A DNA stretch of 21,544 nt, taken from a virus. Below the pieces are notes generated by a model, which was given only the letters and a program-made list of their open reading frames with translations, did not search any database and was not told the origin of the DNA. The stretch lies in the IMG/VR virus record IMGVR_UViG_3300020171_000141, positions 1 through 21,544 of that record; one strand, given 5' to 3'. The translations under genes and the position numbers were made by a program. Shown one piece after another: positions 1,146 through 16,726 of the stretch; the first letter of the stretch is position 1, and the number at the start of each line of letters is the position of its first letter.

Positions 1146-1940
1146 GTGAAATACAGCTCAATAGTTACGCCATCCACAGACAGGCTAGAAGTATCGCATA
1201 GCCATGCTCTCGGTGTGGCTGATTATGACCTTGACGAACTGAATTCACCTGATACTGGCCTCTGGAAAGCAAAGGTGCTGGATTTCGGGTCAGTAAAGTA
1301 TTCGCCCAATAAACTCTACTGGTTAGACCGGAGCCGATATTGTAATCACGGCACAATAACTGGCGCTATCTGGCAACAGTTGCCTTCGGGCGTGTGGGCA
1401 ATAAAATGCGATGGCAGCGATGATGTGGTTTCAGTAGCCGATGCGCCCAGTTTGAACTTTGGCACTGGCGATTTCACCGTCATGCTGTGGGTGCGGACTC
1501 TACAATTAGCGGTGGATTATCCAATTTATATTTCAAAAGATAATGAGGTAGCACCCCGGAGTGGGTTTACCTTTTATCAGGCAACGGGTAGTAATTTTGT
1601 AGTGGGTGCTGTGCTCAGTGGTGGAGCTGAAAACTCTGTAGCTACGGGTATTGCAATAAACGATGGGGTATTCCATCTCATAGCCCTACGGAAGACCGCT
1701 ACCCAGATATGGGTCTACATCGGGTCAAGAACCACCCCTATGGTTGAATATGGGCCGACAGGACATGCCTTGGGCAGCACCGATAAAGTTCAAGCCCTGG
1801 GCATCGGCAACAATCCTGTTGCTGCGCCAGGAACTAGGGCATCTAGTGGGCAATTTAGTAAAGCCCTGATATGTGCCCGTTCTTTAACTCCTGGCGAACT
1901 GGAGAGAATACGGCTTAATACGTGCTGGAGGTATAAGTAA
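1146..1940 (+). CDS. LamG/concanavalin-A-like virion protein
   Basis: GTG 1146 is preceded by GGGAGA with good spacing and gives 264 residues. From about residue 45 the sequence follows the LamG (laminin G, concanavalin-A-like sandwich) pattern seen in phage and bacterial surface proteins. SRYCNHGTI comes first, then a CDGSDDVVSV strand, then FGTGDFTVMLWVRT, and it ends with a LTPGELERIR helix typical of these domains. Such domains bind sugars or proteins, so a role in attaching virions to host surfaces or mucus is plausible. It sits in an unusual place, between the upstream genes and the head morphogenesis gene rather than with the tail fibres. A second LamG domain occurs in the tail hub at 13421-15478. 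Confidence 0.8.
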   Translation: MKYSSIVTPSTDRLEVSHSHALGVADYDLDELNSPDTGLWKAKVLDFGSVKYSPNKLYWLDRSRYCNHGTITGAIWQQLPSGVWAIKCDGSDDVVSVADAPSLNFGTGDFTVMLWVRTLQLAVDYPIYISKDNEVAPRSGFTFYQATGSNFVVGAVLSGGAENSVATGIAINDGVFHLIALRKTATQIWVYIGSRTTPMVEYGPTGHALGSTDKVQALGIGNNPVAAPGTRASSGQFSKALICARSLTPGELERIRLNTCWRYK

Positions 1941-2154: not shown

Positions 2155-2762
2155 TGTCAGACTTGAAAGTAGACCTTGACGACATGCTTGACCCGATACT
2201 GGGGGCATTCCGTGACACACTCCAGGCAAAGCTCACGGCTAGGGCGGTGATAGCATATCTGAAAGGGAGCGCCCAGATGATAAGCTGGGGCCGCACGAAA
2301 CTGACTGATAGGCCGATATTCTTTGAGGGTCCGCCGATCCGACAGGCAATTGCCTATGCCAACAAGCATGCTGCCCGGCTGGTGACTAAGATGGACGCAG
2401 AGACAAAGGACAGGTTGGCGAAGGTTATCGGCGATGCCATCAAAGAGAAACGGGGGATACCTGGGTTGGCGCGGGACATACGGAAAGAGTTTGATGACAT
2501 GACTAAATATCGGTCTCAGGTTATTGCACAAACTGAAACCAATGATGCTTTATCGGCAGCTAGCCTTGACCGCATGAAGGATATGGAGGTGAACGGGAAG
2601 GAATGGGTAACTGTCGGTGATGATAGGGTGAGTGAAATCTGTATGGAAAACGAAGCGGCGGGAATCATACCAGTTGACCAACCCTTCCCTAGTGGGCATA
2701 TGAGACCACCTGGACATGTTTCTTGTCGTTGCGCCCTAGCTCCTGTTTTGATTGCCTTGTGA
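2154..2762 (+). CDS. Phage head morphogenesis protein (Mu gpF / SPP1 gp7-like)
   Basis: I place the start at ATG 2154, behind GGAGAAGGA and overlapping the previous stop, rather than at an in-frame upstream ATG; this gives 202 residues. The N-terminal two thirds are helical. The C-terminal part has the Mu-F signature: TETNDAL, then VGDDRVSEICMENE with an Asp and a Cys, a gap, and HMRPPGHVSCRCALAP with the typical P.H..CRC ending. Members are minor head proteins made next to the portal and packaged in small numbers, helping procapsid assembly or DNA entry. The family often follows the portal gene, which fits a portal upstream of this window. It is at the short end for the family. Confidence 0.88.
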   Translation: MSDLKVDLDDMLDPILGAFRDTLQAKLTARAVIAYLKGSAQMISWGRTKLTDRPIFFEGPPIRQAIAYANKHAARLVTKMDAETKDRLAKVIGDAIKEKRGIPGLARDIRKEFDDMTKYRSQVIAQTETNDALSAASLDRMKDMEVNGKEWVTVGDDRVSEICMENEAAGIIPVDQPFPSGHMRPPGHVSCRCALAPVLIAL

Positions 2763-2785
2763 TTTGGGAAGATGAATTAATAAAT

Positions 2786-2863
2786 ATGCCTAAACTGATT
2801 GCTAAACTAAAGAGGTTTGAGAATACGTGCGCCATTGCTCCGGTGATGTTGGCGGTGAAATGA
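2786..2863 (+). CDS. Tiny ORF, doubtful
   Basis: An ATG at 2786 opens a 25-residue frame ending at TGA 2861-2863, whose stop overlaps an ATG at 2860 (ATGA). The ribosome binding site is poor: GGGAAGA lies about 16 bases upstream. The last residues (CAIAPVMLAV) resemble the end of the preceding head protein (CALAPVLIAL), so this could be a small duplicated scrap of that gene. It is listed because it fills the gap, but it may not be translated. Confidence 0.25.
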   Translation: MPKLIAKLKRFENTCAIAPVMLAVK

Positions 2864-2865
2864 GT

Positions 2866-3012
2866 ATGCCAGAGCCAAAAGAGGATGCCGAACTCAAGCA
2901 GGAACTTGACAAGGTGGCTTGGGAGAAGTATCTTACATATGGGAGCGTGAGGGTGCAGGTTAGAGGCGGCAAGAAAACCCTGACGGCTATTGAGAGGACT
3001 TATCCGGACTAG
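2866..3012 (+). CDS. Small charged protein, unknown function
   Basis: I choose ATG 2866 because GGTGA at 2854-2858 is spaced 7 bases from it. GTG 2827 and ATG 2860 are in-frame alternatives. The product is 48 residues, strongly charged, with a helical first half (EDAELKQELDKVAWEKY) and a short strand-like second half (GSVRVQVRGGKKTLTAIERT). No family is recognised. It is the last ORF before the intrinsic terminator at 3042-3076. Confidence 0.5.
   Translation: MPEPKEDAELKQELDKVAWEKYLTYGSVRVQVRGGKKTLTAIERTYPD
2906..2934 (+). promoter_or_regulatory. Candidate sigma70-type promoter inside a small gene
   Basis: TTGACA at 2906-2911 is followed after exactly 17 bases by TATCTT at 2929-2934, a perfect -35 and a 4/6 match to the -10. 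Transcription would start near 2941 and run into the terminator about 100 bases further on. The hexamer lies in coding sequence (codons CTT GAC AAG), so it may be chance. Confidence 0.25.
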
Positions 3013-3041
3013 ATAGACAACTAAATAAGCAAGCCCAAAGG

Positions 3042-3076
3042 AAGAACCTGGAGGCAAAAGTTTCCAGGTTCTTTTT
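3042..3076 (+). terminator. Rho-independent terminator between head genes
   Basis: A perfect 11-bp stem (AAGAACCTGGA 3042-3052 paired with TCCAGGTTCTT 3063-3073) with a 10-base loop is followed by T residues (TTTTTGTTT). This is a textbook intrinsic terminator on the plus strand. It sits in the middle of the head operon, directly before the strong AGGAGGTGA site of the protease/scaffold gene. It could reduce downstream transcription, separate two transcripts, or be bypassed by antitermination. Confidence 0.8.
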
Positions 3077-3092
3077 GTTTCAGGAGGTGACC

Positions 3093-4784
3093 ATGCCATA
3101 CCCGACACTAGATAGCTTGCCAGACTGGGTTAAGGAAATGCCCAAACATGCTCAAGAAATATATCAGGCAGCATGGAAAACGGCGTTTGAACAATACAAA
3201 GACGAAGGTAAGGCAGCGGCGACGGCGATTACTGCCGTGAAAGGCAAGTATGAAAAAAACACAAAGGGAGAGTGGGTAGTCAAGGAATCCCAGGAGGGCA
3301 AGATGTCAAAGGAATCCTTACAGGCCAAATATGCCGAGATAATCCAAGAAGCCGGAAGGCGAGGCAAGGTCAATGACCCCAGAGTTCAGAAAGTGGTAGC
3401 TGAGGGGGACAAGGCCGAGCCTGATGAACTATCTTCAGTGCTTATCTGGCTCAAAGAGCAGGCGACCATGAAAACTGAGGGCGGTGTGCAATTCCCAGCG
3501 TCTGCCTTCGCCTATGTGCCCGATGCTGAGAAACCTTCTGAGTGGAAGTTACGGCTATGGGAAGACCCTGAGAAGAAAGTTACCAAGGCGCAGTTGGGGC
3601 GGGCGGCGGCTGCTCTGAGTCCTGGTGGATTCCGTGGTCAGAAGGTGGAGATACCGCAAGCGGATATGGCGGCAGTCAAGCGGAAGATTCGGGCAGCTTA
3701 CCGGAGTCTGGACGTGGTCGACGAGGACATTCCCCGGTGGGTCAAAGAGGCCGAACATCGGAGTATGCTTTTCAACCATACCTCGCTTTCTGAAGCCACT
3801 ATCGGCACTCAGGGGATCGCCAAAGTTGTGATAATCAAGCCAGGATTTGGCAATCCAGTGGACAACAATTACTACCCCAAAGAGACACTTGCACGAGACT
3901 TCGGGCTGTTTGAGGGCGTGAAAATGTATGCTGACCACCAGACACAAGAGGAGGAAAAGAAGAGGCCGGAGGGTTCGATCCGGCAGTGGGTTGCCAGTCT
4001 GAAGAATGTCCGGTTTGAGGAAGGGGTTGGCATAGTTGGCGATGCAATTATCATTGAGCCGTGGCTCCAGGCCAAACTTGCTACTCTACGGGATAAGAGC
4101 TTACTCAGCGAAATGGGGATATCCATTCGGGCGGCGGGCATAGGTACAAAGGGCAAGGCGGAGGGTAAGGATGCAAATATAGTCGAACGTATAACCCGTG
4201 TGCGTTCTGCCGATTTTGTTACTGAGGCTGGGGCTGGGGGCATGGTGCAGATGTACGAGGCTGGAAATCCTGAAAACGATATTGATATTATCAGCCTCGA
4301 TATATTGAGGGAACGGCGTCCTGACTTGGTCAAAACTATTGAGACTGAGGTCAAAGCCGTAATAATGAGGGAGGTAAAAAAGACAGTGGAATTACAAGAA
4401 ACCGTAGACAAGTTGACCGGGGATATTGCAACTCTGACCAAAGAACGGGACGACCTCAAGGTGAAAATCACCGAGGCAGAGAAGGCGCAGAGGATAGCCG
4501 AAGCCAAGTCCCAGATAGACGAAGCCATAAGCAAATCCGAACTGCCGGAGGCCGCCAAGGTGAGGATTGCCGAGAGGTTCAAGGGAGCCGAGAAAGCCGA
4601 AGGCATTGTCGAGGCAATCAAGGCAGAGACCGATTACATCGCCGCCCTGAAAGAATCGGGGAAGGTCAAGGGCATGGGGGGAACACAGCTGGATGTGGAA
4701 GCTGACCGAAAGGCGCTCAAAGAGTCGTTCAAACGGCTAGGGCTGGACGACAAAGGCGCAGAAATTGCTGTTGCTGGGAGGTAA
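3093..4784 (+). CDS. ChaB-domain / prohead protease / scaffold fusion protein
   Basis: ATG 3093 is chosen because AGGAGGTGA lies directly before it; the frame extends upstream only to a TTG inside the terminator. The 563-residue product has four regions. Residues 8-65 match the ChaB family (LPDWVKEMPKHAQEIYQAAW and onward). Residues 130-205 form a phage domain with FPASAFAYVPDAEKPSEW and GGFRGQKVEI. Residues 225-390 look like a prohead protease of the herpesvirus-assemblin-like group, with His282 in YADHQT and Ser339/Ser344 in LLSEMGIS as candidate catalytic residues. Residues 410-560 are a charged coiled coil typical of a scaffold. The protein would guide capsid assembly and then cut itself and the capsid proteins. 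Protease-scaffold fusions just before the capsid gene are common; a ChaB head on one is less so. The catalytic residues are inferred. Confidence 0.82.
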   Translation: MPYPTLDSLPDWVKEMPKHAQEIYQAAWKTAFEQYKDEGKAAATAITAVKGKYEKNTKGEWVVKESQEGKMSKESLQAKYAEIIQEAGRRGKVNDPRVQKVVAEGDKAEPDELSSVLIWLKEQATMKTEGGVQFPASAFAYVPDAEKPSEWKLRLWEDPEKKVTKAQLGRAAAALSPGGFRGQKVEIPQADMAAVKRKIRAAYRSLDVVDEDIPRWVKEAEHRSMLFNHTSLSEATIGTQGIAKVVIIKPGFGNPVDNNYYPKETLARDFGLFEGVKMYADHQTQEEEKKRPEGSIRQWVASLKNVRFEEGVGIVGDAIIIEPWLQAKLATLRDKSLLSEMGISIRAAGIGTKGKAEGKDANIVERITRVRSADFVTEAGAGGMVQMYEAGNPENDIDIISLDILRERRPDLVKTIETEVKAVIMREVKKTVELQETVDKLTGDIATLTKERDDLKVKITEAEKAQRIAEAKSQIDEAISKSELPEAAKVRIAERFKGAEKAEGIVEAIKAETDYIAALKESGKVKGMGGTQLDVEADRKALKESFKRLGLDDKGAEIAVAGR

Positions 4785-4787
4785 TCC

Positions 4788-4946
4788 ATGAAAATTGATT
4801 CTAGGCAGTTGCGATTCTGCAAGACCATTGGCTGTGAGCAGTTGAAGGGAGCGGACTGTCTAGTGCAGGAGTGTCTACATTCCGACATGGCGAAGGCAAT
4901 AGAGGAACTGCGGGCGCAGTTGAAGGCGGTGAAAGATGCCAAATGA
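4788..4946 (+). CDS. Small four-cysteine protein
   Basis: ATG 4788 follows GGGAGGTAATCC, a strong ribosome site at the end of the protease gene. The 52-residue product has four cysteines at 11, 16, 24 and 29 (CxxxxC, 7 residues, CxxxxC), followed by a charged helix (MAKAIEELRAQLKAVKDAK). The cysteines could bind zinc. Its 3' end overlaps the start of the next gene by 11 bases, and the GGCGGTGA for that gene lies within it. No family is recognised. Confidence 0.6.
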   Translation: MKIDSRQLRFCKTIGCEQLKGADCLVQECLHSDMAKAIEELRAQLKAVKDAK

Positions 4947-5403
4947 CATCACCAATCCATATTATGACCCTCACAGGGTAGCAGGCGAGGAAGTATCCTC
5001 TACTGGAGCAGGGCGGCATATTCTGTGCAAGGAAAACAATATCGGGGCCTATCCTGTTCACGCTGGTGGTCATGTCTGGAAGGGTGACCCTGTGGCGCTG
5101 TTTGATGCTGTGGGCGTGGCGCTAAAAACAGGGACGAGCCCCACCTTTGATGAGGTCATCCCGATTGATACCGAGGGCATCTGGCGGCTACAGGTGACCA
5201 ACACTGGATTGAACAATTTTGGCGCGATAATACCTGGTCAGGTGTTGTTCATTGATTTCAACGGGGTGATAACAGACCACTGGGTGGGTGCCTTCGCCAT
5301 ATTTGGCTTTGCACTCCAGCCGATTGACAGCGTGCGGACGGAAGTCATAGCCGTCAAGGTCCACTGGATGTACCCATACTGGTTCTACGACCCAGTAACA
5401 TAA
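4936..5403 (+). CDS. DUF2190-like capsid decoration protein (first copy)
   Basis: ATG 4936 is preceded by GGCGGTGAAAG and overlaps the previous gene. The product of 155 residues is rich in beta strands and contains the pattern VWKGDPVALFDAVGVALKTG, then IPIDTEGIWRLQV, seen in DUF2190 phage proteins, which decorate or stabilise capsids. The next gene encodes a paralogue with the same landmarks (AGxEVSST, GRH, KGDPV, GVA, IxxEGIW), so this is an old tandem duplication. The place just before the capsid gene supports a role on the head. This copy has only the single domain. Confidence 0.72.
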   Translation: MPNDITNPYYDPHRVAGEEVSSTGAGRHILCKENNIGAYPVHAGGHVWKGDPVALFDAVGVALKTGTSPTFDEVIPIDTEGIWRLQVTNTGLNNFGAIIPGQVLFIDFNGVITDHWVGAFAIFGFALQPIDSVRTEVIAVKVHWMYPYWFYDPVT

Positions 5404-5432: not shown

Positions 5433-6362
5433 ATGTGTCCATATGGAGTTTATACACCGGGAATTGCGGGGGATGAAGTATCCTCCACCTATGAAGGAAG
5501 GCACCTGTCCTTCAGCGAGAGCCAAATAACGCACCCTTCGCACACCGATAACTTAGTAGATAAGGGTGACCCCGTTCGAGTGGGAGACAAGATTGTCGGC
5601 GTGGCATTCACAAGTGCCGTGCTTAACACAGACCTTATTGCCATCGACGCCGAGGGTATTTGGCAGTTGTCAGTGGTAGCGACCGATGATGCCGGTGCCA
5701 GTGCGGTCGCGGTTGGTGATGAGATTTTCATCAACAAGACGACTTGCGTTCTGAGCAAGATACGAAGCATCGCGACACAGATACCGTTCGGCTACGCCCT
5801 GTACCCCATAGCGGCGGGGACGGATGTTATCCCGGTTAAGGTGCACTTTGACCCGACAGTGGACTCCCAACTTGCTATGTTCAACGCTGTTGTAGTCAGT
5901 GGCGGATATGGCAAATCCATGAAGGCTACTCTCAACGGAGGTGCGTCTGAGGGTCTTAGCGGCTACCATGAGGGGCATATCAATGCCAACACGACTGGCC
6001 ATCTTTACAACTTCGGCTCGTGGATAAATGTGGATGCTCAGAATATCCTGAAGGCTGGCCATATCATCGTCCCCTTTGAAGGCGGTGTGTATGCCGGTCA
6101 AACCCAAACAGATGCCAGGGTAGTGTTTGCTGGGCAGCATCAGGCCATACTTGCGGGGCCACCTGCATCCATGCACGCGTGGAGACTCAATGTTGCTCAG
6201 GTTGCCGGTAACATCACGGCACTTATCGCGGCAGCCAATCCTGAATCGGTCGGGTATGTGACCAGCGGCGCTACGGCAAGCACTAAGGTTGGCAGCATCC
6301 CGATAGCGGATATTGTCAGCAAGGGCATCGTCTGGGTGCGTTGCTACGATTCAGCAGTTTAG
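5433..6362 (+). CDS. DUF2190-like decoration protein with an extra C-terminal domain
   Basis: ATG 5433 follows AGGAGGTAAC with about 10 bases of spacing. The product has 309 residues. Residues 1-145 are paralogous to the previous protein (IAGDEVSST, KGDPVRVGDKIVGVAFT, AIDAEGIWQLSV). Residues 150-309 form a second domain, also rich in beta strands, with landmarks SGGYGKSMKATLNGG, LYNFGSWINV, ALIAAANPESVGYV and a final GIVWVRCYDS. I believe this second module recurs in phage head proteins next to capsid genes, but no fold can be named with certainty. Probable role: an outer capsid decoration carrying a protruding domain. Confidence 0.72.
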   Translation: MCPYGVYTPGIAGDEVSSTYEGRHLSFSESQITHPSHTDNLVDKGDPVRVGDKIVGVAFTSAVLNTDLIAIDAEGIWQLSVVATDDAGASAVAVGDEIFINKTTCVLSKIRSIATQIPFGYALYPIAAGTDVIPVKVHFDPTVDSQLAMFNAVVVSGGYGKSMKATLNGGASEGLSGYHEGHINANTTGHLYNFGSWINVDAQNILKAGHIIVPFEGGVYAGQTQTDARVVFAGQHQAILAGPPASMHAWRLNVAQVAGNITALIAAANPESVGYVTSGATASTKVGSIPIADIVSKGIVWVRCYDSAV

Positions 6363-9232: not shown

Positions 9233-9613
9233 ATGGCATGGCAACTGTTGACAGTAATTGAGGCAACAAAGGCGGGACCGGCAGCATTGCTGGATTTGGT
9301 AACAGCAGCAGTGTCATGGGACAATGTTACCTATGCGGACGGGGTTGAATTTGCTAATGATGGAAAAACGGTTTTGATTGTTAGCAATGTAGACGCTGTC
9401 AAGACCTCAACGCAAACTTTCCAAGCCGTCCTAGATGAAGATGGACGAACTGAGACTCTTGCTCCAGTGGTAGCTGCACTAAAAACTGGTCTTATGGGGC
9501 CGTTTCTACCTACACTCTGGAATACGAGTGATGGCAGAATTAGATTTATTCCAAGTCAGGCAGCCGAAGTCGATATCAAATTCGTGGCCGTAAGAGTAGA
9601 TAAACCGAGTTAA
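9233..9613 (+). CDS. Small beta-rich virion protein (tandem copy 1)
   Basis: ATG 9233 follows AGGAGGCAATT. The 126-residue product shares clear landmarks with the product of the next gene: FANDGKTVLIV, DGRTETLAPV, GPFLPTLWNTSDGRIRF and a final VAVRV. The layout recalls a widespread family of small phage proteins with an immunoglobulin-like sandwich (NDG+T, GPF...N) found near tail or capsid genes and thought to decorate virions. No enzymatic residues are visible. The two genes are 11 bases apart and both have strong ribosome sites, which implies high output. Confidence 0.68.
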   Translation: MAWQLLTVIEATKAGPAALLDLVTAAVSWDNVTYADGVEFANDGKTVLIVSNVDAVKTSTQTFQAVLDEDGRTETLAPVVAALKTGLMGPFLPTLWNTSDGRIRFIPSQAAEVDIKFVAVRVDKPS

Positions 9614-9624
9614 GGAGGTAAATT

Positions 9625-9987
9625 ATGGCTGACCAGGTTATGACGGTAGTAAATGCAGTCAAAACGGGTATCCTGGACGTTGCTGGTAATGCTGCTGCAA
9701 AGGCCGGAACCGCCGCAGGTGCAGACCAGTTCCTTATGCCGAATGATGGCAAGACAGTTTTGGCGGTTGTAGGAGGTGCTGCCCCGGCTGCTCTCACGTT
9801 CACGGCGGTTGCAAATAAATATGGCAGAACTGAAACGCTTGTAGTAACGCCAGGAACCAATAAAACATCAATCATCGGGCCCTTCAAGCCTCACCTATGG
9901 AACAATTCCGCTGGTCAGGTCGAGTTTGACCCGGCAGGTGGTGGGCAGGCTGATGACTTTTATCTGGCAGTTAGAGTATCGCAATAG
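9625..9987 (+). CDS. Small beta-rich virion protein (tandem copy 2)
   Basis: ATG 9625 follows AAGGAGGTAAATT. The 120-residue product is a diverged paralogue of the preceding one: MPNDGKTVLAVV, YGRTETLVVTP, IIGPFKPHLWNNSAGQVEF and LAVRVSQ line up in order. An Ala/Gly-rich N-terminal loop (AGNAAAKAGTAAGAD) differs from copy 1. Likely a structural, possibly decorating, protein. It precedes the tail tube gene by 11 bases. Which part of the virion it sits on cannot be told from the sequence. Confidence 0.68.
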   Translation: MADQVMTVVNAVKTGILDVAGNAAAKAGTAAGADQFLMPNDGKTVLAVVGGAAPAALTFTAVANKYGRTETLVVTPGTNKTSIIGPFKPHLWNNSAGQVEFDPAGGGQADDFYLAVRVSQ

Positions 9988-10907: not shown

Positions 10908-11143
10908 GCGAAGCTTTTGAGTTTCTGTTAGTCGAGTGGCACCTGCCCCCAGACCACATTGTAAATAATTGGAGTGACGAATTATTTAACTTGATGGTGG
11001 AAAAACTTGTAGAACGCAAGGAGCGGGAGGTGGAGGCAATCAAGGAAGCAAGGTCGGAATCTCCAAGCCCACCTAACAACATGGTTCCTGACCTAGTGTT
11101 ATTTCGCAAAGCTGGCATAAAGGTGAACAAGATTGGCAATTAA
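10524..11143 (+). CDS. Tail assembly chaperone, frameshifted long product (gpGT-like)
   Basis: The -1 frame relative to the preceding ORF is open from 10838 to TAA 11141-11143 and has no convincing start of its own. It encodes a sensible protein stretch (GEAFEFLLVEWHLPPDHIVN, then a charged helix VEKLVERKEREVEAIKEA). In most long-tailed phages the gene between tube and tape measure is read this way, giving G and GT proteins in a fixed ratio. Here the direction is -1, as in lambda. Candidate slip sites are C CCT TTG at 10859-10865 and the five G at 10880-10884. The join would add about 80 residues. The 3' end overlaps the tape measure start. Confidence 0.7.
10859..10884 (+). other. Candidate -1 ribosomal slippery region
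   Basis: The heptamer C CCT TTG (10859-10865) fits X XXY YYZ in the zero frame. The run of five G at 10880-10884 (GCG GGG GCA) would also let a glycine tRNA slip back one base. Both lie upstream of the zero-frame stop at 10905 and inside the open -1 frame that begins at 10838. Which one is used cannot be decided from the sequence. Confidence 0.5.
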
Positions 11144-13421
11144 AATCGGTGATGCTTTACTCAAGCTCGGAGTAGATTCTACCGAGCTTGATGCTGGCAT
11201 GAAGAAGGCCACTGATAATATCAAGGCGCAGATGAAGGTCGCTGGCACTGCCATGACGGCCTTCGGTGCTGCTACTATGGCCGCTCTAGGACTAGCTACC
11301 AAATCAGCCATAGAGCAGGAAGTCGGGATACAGCGCCTTGCTAATACCCTCAAAAATGTCGGCGTGAACTATGCCGATGTGCGGGCGGAACTGGAAGCTA
11401 ACATAACTACCATGCAACGCAAAACCAACTACGCCGATGAGGAGCAGCGGGATGCGCTGAATCAACTAATCTCTATCACTGGAGAATATCAAGGTTCTCT
11501 GGAATTGCTACAACTTGCAACAGATATGGCAACCGCTAAACAGATGGATTTATCCTCGGCAGCTTTACTAGTAGGCAGAGCAGCCCTCGGTGACACACAA
11601 TTGCTCAAACGATATGGAATTATTGTGGCAGAGGGTGCTACGGCTACCCAAATCCTAGCTACTATGCAAGAGCGATTCGGGGGAGCGGCGGCGGCGGCGG
11701 TCAATCCGGTGACGCAACTGAAGAATCTAATGAGTGATTTTATGGAGGACATAGGCACTCTTGCGCTACCTATACTCCAGGGGCTTATTGATAGCCTAAA
11801 GAGCGTGATAGAAGATGTGCGGGCGTGGATAAAGGAAAATCCCGAGCTTGCCAGGCAGATTGTAATCCTTACGGCTGTGCTAGGGGGGATGGCTGCCGTA
11901 TTAGGCCCTATTCTCCTCATGCTACCAATGATTCTAACGGCTATGGCTGCAATCGGCGGTCCTATCGCGCTATTGATTGCCGGCATAAGTTTGCTCACGG
12001 CTGGCCTTGTTGCAATGGTGATAGAATCGAAAATTGCCGATACCACTATCACCAAAGGGGCACAAGACACCACTACCGCCCTGAAGGCTGAAAATAAGAA
12101 ACGCTTAAATGATAGGCTAGAATCCATAGATAAGGAACGTGTTGCACTCAAAAAAGCCCATGAAGAAGAAATCGCCCGAATCAAAGAAGAATATGGGATG
12201 GATGACCAGCAACGTCAGTCTAAGATGGCCTTTGCCAAGCAGACCTATGACTATTACAAAGGCGAGAATGACAAGAAAATTGATGATGCTAAAATCGCCC
12301 ATGACAAGCAGTTAGATTATATTTATGAACTCTATGGTGCCGATAGAGATGCAACCAAATCAATGGCGCAGTTAGCCAGGGATAGGACTTCAGCAGCGAC
12401 GGATTCTCTAAATGAGGAAATGCAGGCGACTAGAGCTGCTTACAATGAAAAAATAGATTTGCTAGATAAGGAATACAGGGCAAAAGTAAAAATTCTTGAT
12501 GCTGGCACTCAGAAAGTGATTGCTAAATACCAGGCTGAAATAGATGCCATTGACAAACGCACAAAGGCGGAAGACATAGCACTCCGTGAAATAGAATGGG
12601 CAAAGAGGACGACAGAACTAGAGACAGCCGTTGAGGAGGCCAAGGGCTATAAAGCGCATAAAGAGGCGCAGGAGAAATTAACAGAATTCCTAGCAGGTAT
12701 TATCCGTCAGAGATTGCTTGATACCAGGGCGGTGGAAAAGGAAGGGCTACAGGCAAAAATCACCACCACAAGAGAATCGGCAAATGCAGAAAAGGATTCC
12801 TTACAGGAGGCACTTGAAGCTACCAAACAAGCCGAGGCAGCCAAACGAAAAGTAGCAGAACAGGCAACTAAAGACAAGAAAACCGCTCTTGACCTGGCTT
12901 TGACTGAGGAACTTACACGTATCAAAACGCTCCAAGATGCTGATATTGACGCAGCGAATGCTGCGTGGACGGCTTTAGAGACTAGACTCACCAGTGAAAG
13001 TACAGCCCTTGATACCGCTCTGACAGACGATTTAGCCCGTATTGCTAGCGACCGTGATGCGTTTATAGAGGCTGAGAATGCCAAACTCGCCGCCACCTTA
13101 CGACGGTTGGCAGGTGAGCAGGCTACAATCTCTGAGACGGGCATAGTAACCACTCCCTCGCCTTATGTCTCACGGCTTTCCCCTAGGCTTGAGGAGTGGC
13201 AACATGGCGGCATGATAACCGAGCCGACACTGCTCTATGGTTTGAGGTCCAAGCAGCCTTATGCCATTGCTGGTGAGGCCGGGCCGGAACGTGTTGGTGG
13301 TGGTGGAATCAGCATAACCATTACAGGCAATGATTTTAATGTCCGCCGTGACTCAGATATAAACCAAATTGCTCAGGCACTTGTGGACAAAATCAGACTT
13401 AAAACGGGAGTTCGCATCTAG
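11133..13421 (+). CDS. Tail tape measure protein
   Basis: TTG 11133 is used as start because AAAGGTGA lies 8 bases before it. The 762-residue product begins as many tape measures do (KIGDALLKLGVDSTELDAGM). It has a short hydrophobic helix at about 34-55, a long hydrophobic block at about 238-299 with several potential membrane segments, a charged coiled coil at about 315-645, and a C-terminal YAIAGEAGPERVGGGG, matching the GEAGPE motif found near the ends of many tape measures. At about 0.15 nm per residue the tail would be near 115 nm. It would fill the tail tube and help DNA enter the cell. No lytic domain is visible. Confidence 0.9.
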   Translation: MAIKIGDALLKLGVDSTELDAGMKKATDNIKAQMKVAGTAMTAFGAATMAALGLATKSAIEQEVGIQRLANTLKNVGVNYADVRAELEANITTMQRKTNYADEEQRDALNQLISITGEYQGSLELLQLATDMATAKQMDLSSAALLVGRAALGDTQLLKRYGIIVAEGATATQILATMQERFGGAAAAAVNPVTQLKNLMSDFMEDIGTLALPILQGLIDSLKSVIEDVRAWIKENPELARQIVILTAVLGGMAAVLGPILLMLPMILTAMAAIGGPIALLIAGISLLTAGLVAMVIESKIADTTITKGAQDTTTALKAENKKRLNDRLESIDKERVALKKAHEEEIARIKEEYGMDDQQRQSKMAFAKQTYDYYKGENDKKIDDAKIAHDKQLDYIYELYGADRDATKSMAQLARDRTSAATDSLNEEMQATRAAYNEKIDLLDKEYRAKVKILDAGTQKVIAKYQAEIDAIDKRTKAEDIALREIEWAKRTTELETAVEEAKGYKAHKEAQEKLTEFLAGIIRQRLLDTRAVEKEGLQAKITTTRESANAEKDSLQEALEATKQAEAAKRKVAEQATKDKKTALDLALTEELTRIKTLQDADIDAANAAWTALETRLTSESTALDTALTDDLARIASDRDAFIEAENAKLAATLRRLAGEQATISETGIVTTPSPYVSRLSPRLEEWQHGGMITEPTLLYGLRSKQPYAIAGEAGPERVGGGGISITITGNDFNVRRDSDINQIAQALVDKIRLKTGVRI
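12882..13088 (+). repeat. Internal repeat of 120 bases in the tape measure gene
   Basis: Two segments starting at 12882 and 13002 encode TALDLALTEELTRI and TALDTALTDDLARI, each followed by a DA.I.A.NA pattern. The offset is exactly 120 bases (40 residues), suggesting a diverged tandem duplication in the coiled coil. Confidence 0.5.
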
Positions 13422-15478
13422 TGGTAATCAGAACTTACATTGGTGGCGTTGATGTTGAAACCCAGAGGGGAAGTTTCAGCATTGAAGAACGCATTGAGGA
13501 ACGCAGCACAGCTTCATTTGTCATCGTGGATGAGGCGGGCATTTTGCCTAGTCTCATATTGGGCTGGCGCTGTGACGAAGGCGGGGGAACAATTCTATAT
13601 GATTGGGATGGTGGTAATGACCTAACGCTCTACAATGCTCCCACTTGGGAAGCAGGTATGCGTAACGATGCAATCCGACTGAATGGAACAACGCAATACG
13701 GGCGAAAAGTGTTGGCTAGCCGTCTGCCGACAACCACTATGACAATTTGTGGGTGGATAAACCCCGATGCGCTGACAGACTGGCCTGGGATATTAGCACA
13801 TAAGACATTTCAAGCTGGGGGTTGGATTTTATTCTTTGATTCGGCGGGCATACTTTATTTCCGAGTCTATACTGGTGGCGTGGGCTTTCAGCAAGCCGTT
13901 AAAACTGGCATAGTGGCAGGGGCCTGGAATTTTGTGGCAGCGACCTATGATGGTGCCGAAATCACAGCATGGGTGAATGCCGTACCGGGTGCTGCCGTTG
14001 CCTGCACACAGGCGCTTGATAGCATTGGAGACCTATATTTTGGTGTTGATGATGTGCTCACCCCAGCATTGTATTTTGACGGACTGCTGGACGAAATGCT
14101 TTTGGCTCATTCCGCTTTCACTCAGAGACAGCTGGAGTTAGTTCGTGACTTTCGTTTTTGCCAAACTACTCTCCCTAGAGGCAAGCCCCTTGATATTTTC
14201 GAGGGTATAGCAGTTCCACCATTTATCCATCCTCTTTTTGGTGGATTCATTGACACGCCTGGGACTAGCAGGATTGCACCAAAAGAACCGTTACTGCGGC
14301 ATGATATTACCTGTATGGACAATCACTATCTAGCCGATAAGCGCAGAGTGGTGAAAAGTTACGCTAACCAGACATTGGGTTTTATAGTAACCGATATTTT
14401 CAATGATTACCTAACCGCCGAAGGGATTACCATCGGGGCAATCCAAACAGGCCCAACGATTGAATCTGCAATCTTCAATTACGTTCGGGTGTCCGAAGCT
14501 TTCGACGCTCTGAAGGAACTATCAGGTTTTACCTGGTTCATTGACGAAGGTTTGAGGCTGTTTTTCATTGACCGAGCCACCTATGCAGCACCCTGGAATC
14601 TGGACATGCTGACACATCGGCCTATCAAGGGAAGTATGCACGTCAGCACGGGCAACTCGATGTATCGCAATCGCCAGTGGATTAAAGGCGGGCTGGGGGT
14701 GACATCTCTTCAGACACAACATTTCACCGGGGATGCTGTAGTCAAGAGCTTTGCTCTAGGCTATCCTGTGGCTTTAGTGCCAGTAATAACTCTAACTCCT
14801 GGCGGTGTGCAGACCATAGGAATTAAGGGAATAGATACAGGTATGGCTTACTACTGGAGTAAGGGGGATAATACTATTGTTGCAACGGCGGCCCCGGGTG
14901 CTGGTGTTGATGTCCAAGTGGACTACTATGGGCAATATCCCGTGATTGCGTTGGTTAGCGACTCCGCAGAAGTGATACTACGGCAAGATATTGAGGGGGG
15001 AACTGGTATTGTGGAGGATGTAGCAACGGAGGCGCAACTAGAATCGGGAGATGCCGCAGTTGAATCGGCAAAGGCAAAACTGGCTACCTATTGCCAGGAG
15101 GCTGAGAAACTTACCTATCAGACTCAGGATTGGGGGTTACATCCGGGCCAGTTGCAGCAAGTATCGTTCACTCCCTTTGGCCTTGCTGCCCATGAAATGC
15201 TGATAGAATCCGTTACCGTTACTGCCGATGGGGAAGATATTATCTATGATATATCGTGCATTACTGGGCCCGCGATGGGAAGTTGGGCAAAATTTTTCAG
15301 CAATATTCTTACACGGCAAGATAAGACTATCAAGATTGGAGATAGTCTTCTGCTGGTATTGCTCCAGCAAGCAGAAATTTTGGAGTTAGCAGAGGTAGCT
15401 GCTAGGTCAGAACACACTACAGAGGATTATCATTGGGACTTGGCAGAATCAAGATGGGATTTCGCAACTTATGCCTGA
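13421..15478 (+). CDS. Tail hub / tip protein with a nested LamG domain
   Basis: GTG 13421 overlaps the tape measure stop (TAGTG). The 685-residue product begins with IGGVDVETQ and EERSTASFVIVDEAG, the first half of a tail-hub N-terminal domain. At about residues 45-245 a complete LamG domain follows (CDEGGGTILYDWDGGNDLTL, AIRLNGTTQYG, MTICGWINPD, WNFVAATYDGAEITAWVN, FTQRQLELVRDF). The hub domain then resumes with GKPLDIFEG and PLFGGFIDTP, continuing through LSGFTWFIDEGLRLFFIDR to about residue 610. The hub would sit at the tail tip, and the LamG insert could bind host-surface sugars. The end is helical (LLLVLLQQAEILELAEVAA). The following ORF is in the same frame beyond a single TGA. Confidence 0.8.
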   Translation: MVIRTYIGGVDVETQRGSFSIEERIEERSTASFVIVDEAGILPSLILGWRCDEGGGTILYDWDGGNDLTLYNAPTWEAGMRNDAIRLNGTTQYGRKVLASRLPTTTMTICGWINPDALTDWPGILAHKTFQAGGWILFFDSAGILYFRVYTGGVGFQQAVKTGIVAGAWNFVAATYDGAEITAWVNAVPGAAVACTQALDSIGDLYFGVDDVLTPALYFDGLLDEMLLAHSAFTQRQLELVRDFRFCQTTLPRGKPLDIFEGIAVPPFIHPLFGGFIDTPGTSRIAPKEPLLRHDITCMDNHYLADKRRVVKSYANQTLGFIVTDIFNDYLTAEGITIGAIQTGPTIESAIFNYVRVSEAFDALKELSGFTWFIDEGLRLFFIDRATYAAPWNLDMLTHRPIKGSMHVSTGNSMYRNRQWIKGGLGVTSLQTQHFTGDAVVKSFALGYPVALVPVITLTPGGVQTIGIKGIDTGMAYYWSKGDNTIVATAAPGAGVDVQVDYYGQYPVIALVSDSAEVILRQDIEGGTGIVEDVATEAQLESGDAAVESAKAKLATYCQEAEKLTYQTQDWGLHPGQLQQVSFTPFGLAAHEMLIESVTVTADGEDIIYDISCITGPAMGSWAKFFSNILTRQDKTIKIGDSLLLVLLQQAEILELAEVAARSEHTTEDYHWDLAESRWDFATYA

Positions 15479-15493
15479 ACAAAGATATCGATT

Positions 15494-16027
15494 TTGGATA
15501 ATACGGTGGATAAATTGTTGATAGCATCGTCATTGCTGAATCGAATACCCTGCCAGACTGAATATCTCAAAGTCAAAGGGCATTGGCGCTTGACTGCTAG
15601 GCATATCGTGACCGATGAAACCATCATCCAAGAGGGTCATAATCTCATAGTCACAGTGGGCTTGACTTGGCTCTTGCATTACCTGATAAATGATGGTGGC
15701 TATACCAACGGCTTTACCTATTGCGCTTTGGGCAATGACAATACCGCTCCGGTAATCGGGGATACGGTCCTTGGCTCGGAGCAATCACGCAAGGCCATCA
15801 CACTCAAAGGGCCGGTCAATGTGGGCGATACTGATGTCATACTTTCTACCTTCTTCACGGCAGCGCAAAGCACTTTTTACCTCAAAGAGGCTGGCATATT
15901 TGGCCATGATGCTGGCGCCGGTGCTGATAGCGGTACTCTTTGGTCAAGATGGATTACTGATTTTGATAATAGTCTGGGGGCATACGATATCACGATTGAT
16001 TATACCCTCAGCCTGTCAACCCCATAG
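15494..16027 (+). CDS. Tail fibre or baseplate-like protein
   Basis: The listed start is TTG 15494; GTG 15506 is an alternative. Neither has a visible ribosome site, unlike nearly all other genes here. The 177-residue product contains GHWRLTARHIVTDETIIQEG, then HNLIVTVGLTWLLHYLIN, a pattern seen in phage tail proteins that begin with a strand-rich domain followed by a short helix. The rest is rich in beta strands (STFYLKEAGIFGHDAGA, WITDFDNSLGAYDITIDYTL). It is in the same frame as the hub gene and separated from it by TGA plus five codons, so readthrough or re-initiation is possible. A role at the tail tip is likely from position. Confidence 0.68.
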   Translation: MDNTVDKLLIASSLLNRIPCQTEYLKVKGHWRLTARHIVTDETIIQEGHNLIVTVGLTWLLHYLINDGGYTNGFTYCALGNDNTAPVIGDTVLGSEQSRKAITLKGPVNVGDTDVILSTFFTAAQSTFYLKEAGIFGHDAGAGADSGTLWSRWITDFDNSLGAYDITIDYTLSLSTP

Positions 16028-16036
16028 GAGGGATGC

Positions 16037-16726
16037 ATGGCTATTGCAACAGGTGACCAGATACTGGCGGCAGATGTAAATGCCGTTGCTATGTTGCCGG
16101 AAAGCCGACTGGATATCTCTGATGATTTTATCACCGGCTCTCTGACAACCGGAACGGTGGGTGCACTTTCCTGGCAATTTGTGGGGATAAGCGCAACACA
16201 ATACCCCAGTTTTGCCAACCACCCAGGAATATTTGGCATATCAACGACAGCTGTTCCAAATAATAGGGCATATCTTTTCCATGGGGCTACCAATAAAGAC
16301 TTGCTTCGCGCTGCTGATTTGTGGGAGAAGACGTTCATTATCTATGCCCCCCTTGTAACAGCTGTCAAGTTTTTCTTCGGTGCCATAGATGACATTTCTG
16401 CCGCAACAACTAACCAACATAAAGCTGGTTTCGAGTTTAACTCTGCAACAGATGCTTTCTGGATGATGTGCACTGGTTCTGGGGCTGCTGAGACACGGAC
16501 GGCAACGAATATAGCACCAGTTCTTATGACTTTCTACAAACTCAAAATCAAACGAATAGCAGGTGGTTTCGAGTTCTACATAGATGATGTGCTCAAAGGA
16601 ACCGTCACGCTTACCCTCCCCGCTAATGCTTTGACGTTCGGCATTCAGACAGAAACCCTTGATGCAGCTTCAAAAGAGATACGAGTGGATTTCTTTCACC
16701 TGAAACTCCCTGGGATAACGAGGTAA
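16037..16726 (+). CDS. Putative tail fibre / receptor-binding protein (concanavalin-like)
   Basis: ATG 16037 follows AGGAGGGATGC. The 229-residue product starts with ATGDQILAADVNAV, a short motif at the N-terminus of many phage tail fibre proteins (the 'G..i.a.d.N' anchor). The remainder looks like a beta sandwich: KTFIIYAPLV, FFFGAIDDISAATTNQHKAG, TFYKLKIKRIAGGFEFYIDD and a final strand set. The 'k..G...fYiDg' step is typical of lectin-like folds. It probably binds the host surface. The stop overlaps the next ATG (TAATG). Confidence 0.72.
   Translation: MAIATGDQILAADVNAVAMLPESRLDISDDFITGSLTTGTVGALSWQFVGISATQYPSFANHPGIFGISTTAVPNNRAYLFHGATNKDLLRAADLWEKTFIIYAPLVTAVKFFFGAIDDISAATTNQHKAGFEFNSATDAFWMMCTGSGAAETRTATNIAPVLMTFYKLKIKRIAGGFEFYIDDVLKGTVTLTLPANALTFGIQTETLDAASKEIRVDFFHLKLPGITR

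Follow-up and report, generated by a model that had tools for sequence, protein, structure and literature searches.

The window analysed here, by which we mean the whole 21,544-base stretch of viral DNA, a virus record from IMG/VR, carries on its plus strand a gene (13421..15478, +) whose product is predicted to be a baseplate hub of the gp27/Mu-gp44 type with a LamG domain nested in it, the hub assignment being based on fold matches and on weak PHROG baseplate hub hits. The gene is a single uninterrupted frame of 685 amino acids with a GTG start, and its first base is also the last of the stop codon of the tape-measure gene directly 5' of it (11133..13421, +; PHROG 28, tail length tape measure, 1.8e-15). 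Directly 3' of the hub lies a conserved ORF (15494..16027, +; phrog_5417, 6.9e-10), and by eye a similar ORF follows the hub in two related loci, L060 and L110. The next ORF (16037..16726, +) encodes a second tail-tip candidate, in which a short N-terminus is followed by an SO2946-like_C domain (Pfam PF22237, 1.1e-06); by eye its N-terminus and that of L060 ORF 6013-6369 are nearly alike and the two products then diverge, as if one anchor carried exchangeable heads. Far from the tail genes, and just upstream of the genes for a Mu F-like minor head protein and a prohead protease, ORF 1146-1940 (+) encodes a free-standing LamG protein (Laminin_G_3, 5.5e-09) that possibly decorates the capsid. 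Two pairs of neighbouring genes, 9233-9613 with 9625-9987 and 4936-5403 with 5433-6362, look like paralogues by eye, and neither Rfam families nor tRNA genes were found in the 21,544-base window.

Three stretches can be told apart in the hub gene. The first part of barrel 1, strands β1-β4 (aa 1-41; 13421..13543, +), lies ahead of the insert and is placed by a hub profile at aa 3-41 and by the strands of an AlphaFold2 model; it is followed in the β4-β5 loop by the nested LamG/ConA-like module (about aa 42-249; 13544..14167, +), which is defined by Pfam PF13385 and by the gap in the hub-profile match, with edges good to a few codons either way; and the hub then resumes from β5 onward with its remaining subdomains (aa 250-684; 14168..15475, +), again placed by the hub profile (45-481) and by the predicted strands. 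Within the module, the Laminin_G_3 profile core (aa 100-237; 13718..14131, +) covers nearly the full length of the profile (positions 12-149 of 151) with E 3.8e-20, and as its score of 73 bits compares with a cut-off of 27.6 the match is not due to chance. When the piece 13544-14167 was searched alone against Pfam, Laminin_G_3 was matched with E 3.4e-21.

The boundaries of the insert follow from the split matches of two hub profiles. The profile built from four insert-free relatives (A2), whose coordinates on the window hub are open-frame numbers minus 6, aligns hub positions 5-43 with aa 3-41 and positions 45-481 with aa 250-684, so that at most about one hub position is left unmatched, and in a second profile of 38 rows hub 4-39 aligns with aa 5-40 and hub 46-447 with aa 254-661. 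The insert is thus about aa 42-249, slightly longer than the residues 45-245 given in an earlier note on this DNA. That note had placed a LamG domain within the N-terminal domain of the hub and had stated that the hub resumes without loss, and both statements are confirmed: a LamG domain is nested in the hub, and the hub sequence is intact on both sides of it. Laminin_G_3 is the sole Pfam family matched by the window hub up to E 1, where no Pfam hub family appears; against PHROGs there are weak hub and tail matches at aa 285-385 (baseplate hub, E 0.0034), and a PDB sequence search with the hub profile gave no match.

AlphaFold2 was run on the window hub with 39 sequences, in an alignment without any homologue of the insert. 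Block means of pLDDT are 85-93 at aa 1-40 and 77-97 at aa 251-620, and the predicted strands are 3-7, 10-12, 19-24 and 30-37, then 256-261, 270-284 and 292-300. In the model of an insert-free hub, L015, the strands are 3-6, 9-11, 18-23, 29-36, 48-53, 62-76 and 83-91; the order is identical in the two models, the connection from β4 to β5 being aa 38-255 in the window and 37-47 in L015. The earlier note had proposed predicting the hub trimer with and without the insert, and had named as refuting a structure in which residues 1-45 and 246-290 fail to form one domain; in these single-chain models no such break is seen. In the insert region of the window model pLDDT is mostly under 50, and since the insert was modelled at low confidence its LamG fold rests on the Pfam profile. 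Using VIA-align, the window model superimposes on the HFTV1 hub (9h4p_BD) with Z 24.0 and rmsd 3.4 over 338 aligned residues, and the L015 model with Z 27.7 and rmsd 3.4 over 340; for the window model the corresponding values are Z 20.6, rmsd 3.8 and 301 aligned against 1wru, and Z 18.1, rmsd 4.0 and 305 aligned against 1k28_D. Foldseek also ranked hubs first. As the structural alignments start at residue 1 of the model, the N-terminal strands belong to the hub fold. The models thus place aa 1-41 and aa 250 onward in one predicted hub fold, and identify the core of the protein as a baseplate hub of the gp27/Mu-gp44 type.

Relatives of this hub mostly lack the insert. A hub-based scan gave 10 viral contigs and a scan with alignment A1 gave 47 loci, including some of the same contigs, and among genome contigs one relative was confirmed from 34 pattern-matching stretches, namely L060, titled Dehalococcoidales bacterium, in which contamination of the bin is possible. 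Named-phage relatives are vir515, with its host written as Methanosarcinales, and Thermoanaerobacterium phage THSA-485A. The spacing between the EERS and C-x-D motifs is 52-61 residues in 40 of the 44 entries that could be parsed by motif, a set in which several entries repeat a single contig and which leaves out 17 other loci that did not fit the motif. The spacing is longer in the window and its own copy, at 268, and in L009/L052, which are one contig, at 408. The closest of the aligned hubs by identity, L015 (64%), has no insert, and shares with the window hub a short extension in the following loop. The flanks of the insert had been described as normally adjacent, and this stands in so far as they are near neighbours in the relatives, but not strictly, the loop of L015 having about 11 residues (aa 37-47). 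In another relative, L006, an in-frame stop codon (3136-3138), either real or an assembly error, falls in the same β4-β5 loop of the hub gene.

In a tree calculated without the insert columns the partner of the window is L015 (support 0.81), the two falling in a clade that also includes L060 and L044 (0.93), and L009 pairs with L017 (0.80), whereas in a larger tree the support for window and L015 is 0.67 and that for L009 with L001 only 0.09. Parsimony on these trees, with their moderate support, favours gain of the module in the window lineage. Its source was sought within the virus and beyond. A recent copy of another LamG gene of the same virus was rejected on the lack of a match to ORFs 1146-1940 or 16037-16726, and no foreign base composition was found, the GC content of the insert being 0.498, where hub and tape measure have 0.479-0.483, and its codon distance ranking 50 of 91 pieces. 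Target-site repeats were also discarded, as the seams share only a 7-base match and 43% of random pairs give as much. A phmmer search of the insert against open frames of at least 80 aa in the family loci (66 sequences with the window) returned only itself at E 0.01; the sole tblastn match in the family loci is 36% identical over 50 residues (E 0.48), and no relative was confirmed in viral contigs (12 pattern-matching stretches), named phages or PDB sequences. The exact insertion is present in one contig only. Domain capture, which the earlier note had suggested, is supported as the origin by the insert-free relatives, by different modules in other loops and by copies at hub N-termini.

Further scans brought together 145 loci with a hub, which collapsed to 71 clusters by shared 40-mers, and a large internal module is present in 9 of them. 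A search for related hubs with a different domain at the same point, as once proposed, recovered hubs without the insert and hubs with other domains, the latter in other loops. The barrel-1 loops (hub 25-75) are spanned by 63 of the 71 clusters, and a large module occurs there in two, the window and L009. The L009 module lies at hub ~55, in the next loop after that of the window, and matches LamG at 7.1e-7 and DUF2341 at 2.7e-4 (below cut-off). Elsewhere in the hub, nested modules are found at hub 122-127 in L114 (210 aa; LamG 1.6e-4, below the Pfam cut-off), at hub 225-275 in L071/L072 (242 aa; CBM_4_9 6.5e-5 for L071, below cut-off) and at hub 354 in L115/L118 (185 aa; CBM_4_9 2.3e-3 for L115, below cut-off), the L071 hub itself being distant from the profile (62 and 46 bits). 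The modules of L115/L118, L071/L072 and L125/L126 are each seen in two records.

The longest insertions are nested at hub ~125, inside subdomain 2. The clusters L124, L127, L128 and L130 had been candidates for long N-terminal extensions, a reading rejected when both hub parts were found in 5 of the 5 records searched (one match, in G005, crosses a TAG stop). In the long hubs L159-L162, from the records of L125, L127, L128 and L132, both parts lie in one open frame in all four stretches, with frames of 1,404, 1,406, 1,406 and 1,703 aa and nested regions of 942, 948, 963 and 966 residues; the nested region of L124 and L127 matches 3keto-disac_hyd, and the hub of L133 is cut at its 5' end. In L105, L108 and L069 the insertion near hub 125 is smaller, at 17-20 residues. 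In L110 the hub is split at hub ~126 into ORFs 847-1254 and 2465-3565 (+), with two complete ORFs between them, one of 189 aa that is virion-protein-like and one of 162 aa that is weakly Ig-like; the split falls at the same site as the nested modules of L114 and L159-L162, and L112, of which the first part was read, has the same short first hub part with the second part at the same distance. Counted on the trees, nested modules are spread over at least six branches: the window, L009 (placed with support of 0.09), L114, L115, L071 and the L159-L162 clade.

Modules are also joined to the ends of hubs. N-terminal modules of more than 150 aa are found in L040, L053, L035, L069, L003 and L092, and L022 has a LamG-like end that is cut by the contig (E 0.11). 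In L003/L004 about 275 residues, by eye largely a hydrophobic repeat with a unit of about 24 residues, are fused in frame before the hub. The nested module of L009 shares 43% identity with the N-terminal module of L053, 40% with that of L040 and 39% with that of L059, and by these sequence matches a predicted DUF2341-LamG module occurs both nested and fused to hub N-termini in one family. The hubs of L035 and L059 share 89% DNA identity over 1,300 bp and have N-terminal regions with no BLASTP match to each other, that of L035 giving only weak F5/8-type and fn3 matches (E 0.046 and 0.061); the difference is probably a recent module swap.

At 1e-3, the Pfam families matched in 69 hub ORFs are Laminin_G_3 (5), 3keto-disac_hyd (3), DUF2341 (2), CBM_4_9 (1) and Baculo_p26 (1), together with the hub families Phage_GPD (4) and YQBQ (2); these ORFs comprise 65 of the 71 clusters (with only the first hub ORF of L110), three full long-hub frames and L059. 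No peptidoglycan-lysin family is among the seven. By profile, most of the modules are of sugar-binding kinds. A PHROG labelled phosphodiesterase is matched by the L069 and L115 modules, however, and with this label and the hydrolase-named 3keto-disac_hyd not all cargo is plainly of the binding type. According to published descriptions, the division/cell-wall gene cluster has been lost in the Dehalococcoidales, and the wall of D. mccartyi is S-layer-like and free of peptidoglycan (PMC10608941). Taken with L060, this suggests that lectins may here replace the lysins of phages on peptidoglycan-bearing hosts, so that lectins would go with hosts lacking peptidoglycan (Dehalococcoidales and other S-layer cells) and lysins or endoglucanases with others, a link behind which stands one MAG contig. 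Thermoanaerobacterium is a walled bacterium, and the hub of its phage THSA-485A has no Pfam match at 0.1, which counts against the idea. The presence in one hub family of loops that accept cargo is well supported. The wider proposal, that the hub is an open chassis offering five or more internal ports (β4-β5 and β5-β6 in barrel 1, ~125 in subdomain 2, 225-275 in the middle and ~354 in barrel 4) as well as the N-terminus, at which lectin-type cargo is repeatedly captured and swapped, its kind following the envelope of the host, we put forward tentatively, as a possibility that we would not yet favour.

We propose, as the probable reading of the window hub, that it is a gp27/Mu-gp44-type hub with a LamG domain taken into its β4-β5 loop, where it would act as an accessory glycan-binding anti-receptor. 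The hub would still fold and trimerise as usual, displaying three LamG domains around the tail tip, and these could bind a host surface glycan, an S-layer sugar or similar, reversibly and with low affinity. Such binding may supplement that of the main receptor-binding proteins, in the way published for the CBMs of evolved Dit/Tal. The hub would serve the family as a chassis into which whole domains can be built at a few tolerant loops, and by taking them in the tail tip seems to acquire new means of host-cell contact. Sugar binding and adhesion by the window LamG are inferred.

LamG/ConA-like sandwiches also serve protein contacts or structure, and not all LamG domains bind sugar. The nested domain might therefore be a structural or docking element, in contact with a baseplate or fibre protein such as the 16037-16726 product or stabilising the hub ring, and have no contact with the host. 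Fibres of HFTV1 are reported to join the N-terminus of its hub (PMC12494034), and domains near barrel 1 could likewise serve fibre attachment. However, 40 of the 44 parsed hub entries do without the domain, and the different folds in different loops of the family are a better fit to exchangeable, outward-facing modules, so that we regard a purely structural role as unlikely. It is less likely still, and in our view improbable, that the domain is a passenger which arrived by illegitimate recombination and is tolerated in its loop with no selected role: no relative of the insert was detected in other hubs and the hub loops of the family tolerate many insertions, but the domain keeps its reading frame and an intact Laminin_G_3 profile (73 bits), and LamG-type cargo recurs in 5 of 69 hub ORFs. 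That the assembler of the metagenomic contig spliced the domain into the hub, as its presence in one contig with no second copy found in viral contigs might suggest, is very improbable, given that the reading frame runs through both seams and the hub has lost no segment, that GC content and codon distance are unremarkable and that analogous nested modules occur in other contigs, three of them in two records each.

The accessory anti-receptor reading, with LamG domains displayed on the hub, has several counterparts among known systems. Evolved Dits, and less often evolved Tals, are described as carrying CBMs, the latter in the gp27-like domain (PMC7291167), and the CBM insertions of Dit/Tal as binding host cells (PMC7291167, PMC9437275); CBM insertions are also reported for the Dits of P335 phages (PMC9692632), and the Tal of Vinitor162 is reported to be CBM-rich with CBM_1 at its N-terminus (PMC8540738). 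The view in the earlier note that hubs are usually dedicated to assembly is thus overstated, as published Tal and hub proteins carry CBMs or lysins within or behind the gp27-like domain (PMC7291167, PMC9437275) or enzymes (PMC10966104). As in the window hub, a binding-type module is nested in a conserved tail-tip domain of which unmodified relatives exist (PMC7291167, PMC9437275, PMC9692632), and the window hub has the layout of an evolved Tal, with its module nested in a loop, the hub core intact and insert-free relatives. It differs from evolved Tal/Dit in its carrier, a hub directly after the tape measure, in its cargo, Laminin_G_3, in the site, the β4-β5 loop of barrel 1, and in belonging to uncultivated viruses.

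Another gp27-type hub with extra domains is gp15 of cyanophage A-1(L) (PDB 8kea), in which they are reported to start at Ser56, with a lysozyme at 56-265 and an endoglucanase at 266-430 (PMC10966104). The window model aligns with 8kea with Z 20.2 and rmsd 4.5 over 303 residues (chain residues 4-714), and A-1(L) residues up to 47 align with the hub up to β4, weakly (hhalign E 0.035, negative hmmsearch score); the A-1(L) enzymes possibly sit in the same loop as the window LamG. However, the cargo of A-1(L) is enzymatic and its sequence similarity negligible, whereas Laminin_G_3 is all that Pfam finds in the window hub. In the Tal of streptococcal phages TP-778L/SW13, unlike the window hub, two lysin modules are carried on long linkers between subdomains 3 and 4, the position given for Tal lysin modules (PMC9437275). 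T4 gp27, Mu gp44 and the MuSo2 43-kDa hub share the fold of the window hub (Z 18.1, 20.6 and 22.1), and to our knowledge none has a LamG domain. The highest-ranked fold match, HFTV1 gp44 (PDB 9h4p), carries a predicted carbohydrate-binding domain as the window hub does, although in HFTV1 this is at the C-terminal end (PMC12494034) and in the window the LamG is nested in barrel 1.

Domain nesting in tail-tip proteins is therefore already known. A literature search for LamG, Laminin_G_3 or concanavalin A-like domains nested in phage hubs found none among the papers listed, which does not prove their absence from print, and as far as such searches go the LamG variant is new. What the present data add is that one hub family carries modules at several sites, and that the same module type occurs both nested and terminal. 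Together with insert-free sister sequences, these data document repeated gain of whole domains at defined hub loops in uncultivated viruses, and the tolerant loops are an obvious starting point for asking how tail tips change host contact. The idea of the evolved Dit/Tal is thereby extended from siphophages of Gram-positive bacteria to this hub family, with its cellular links to one Dehalococcoidales MAG contig and, more distantly, to a Methanosarcinales-listed virus and a Thermoanaerobacterium phage.
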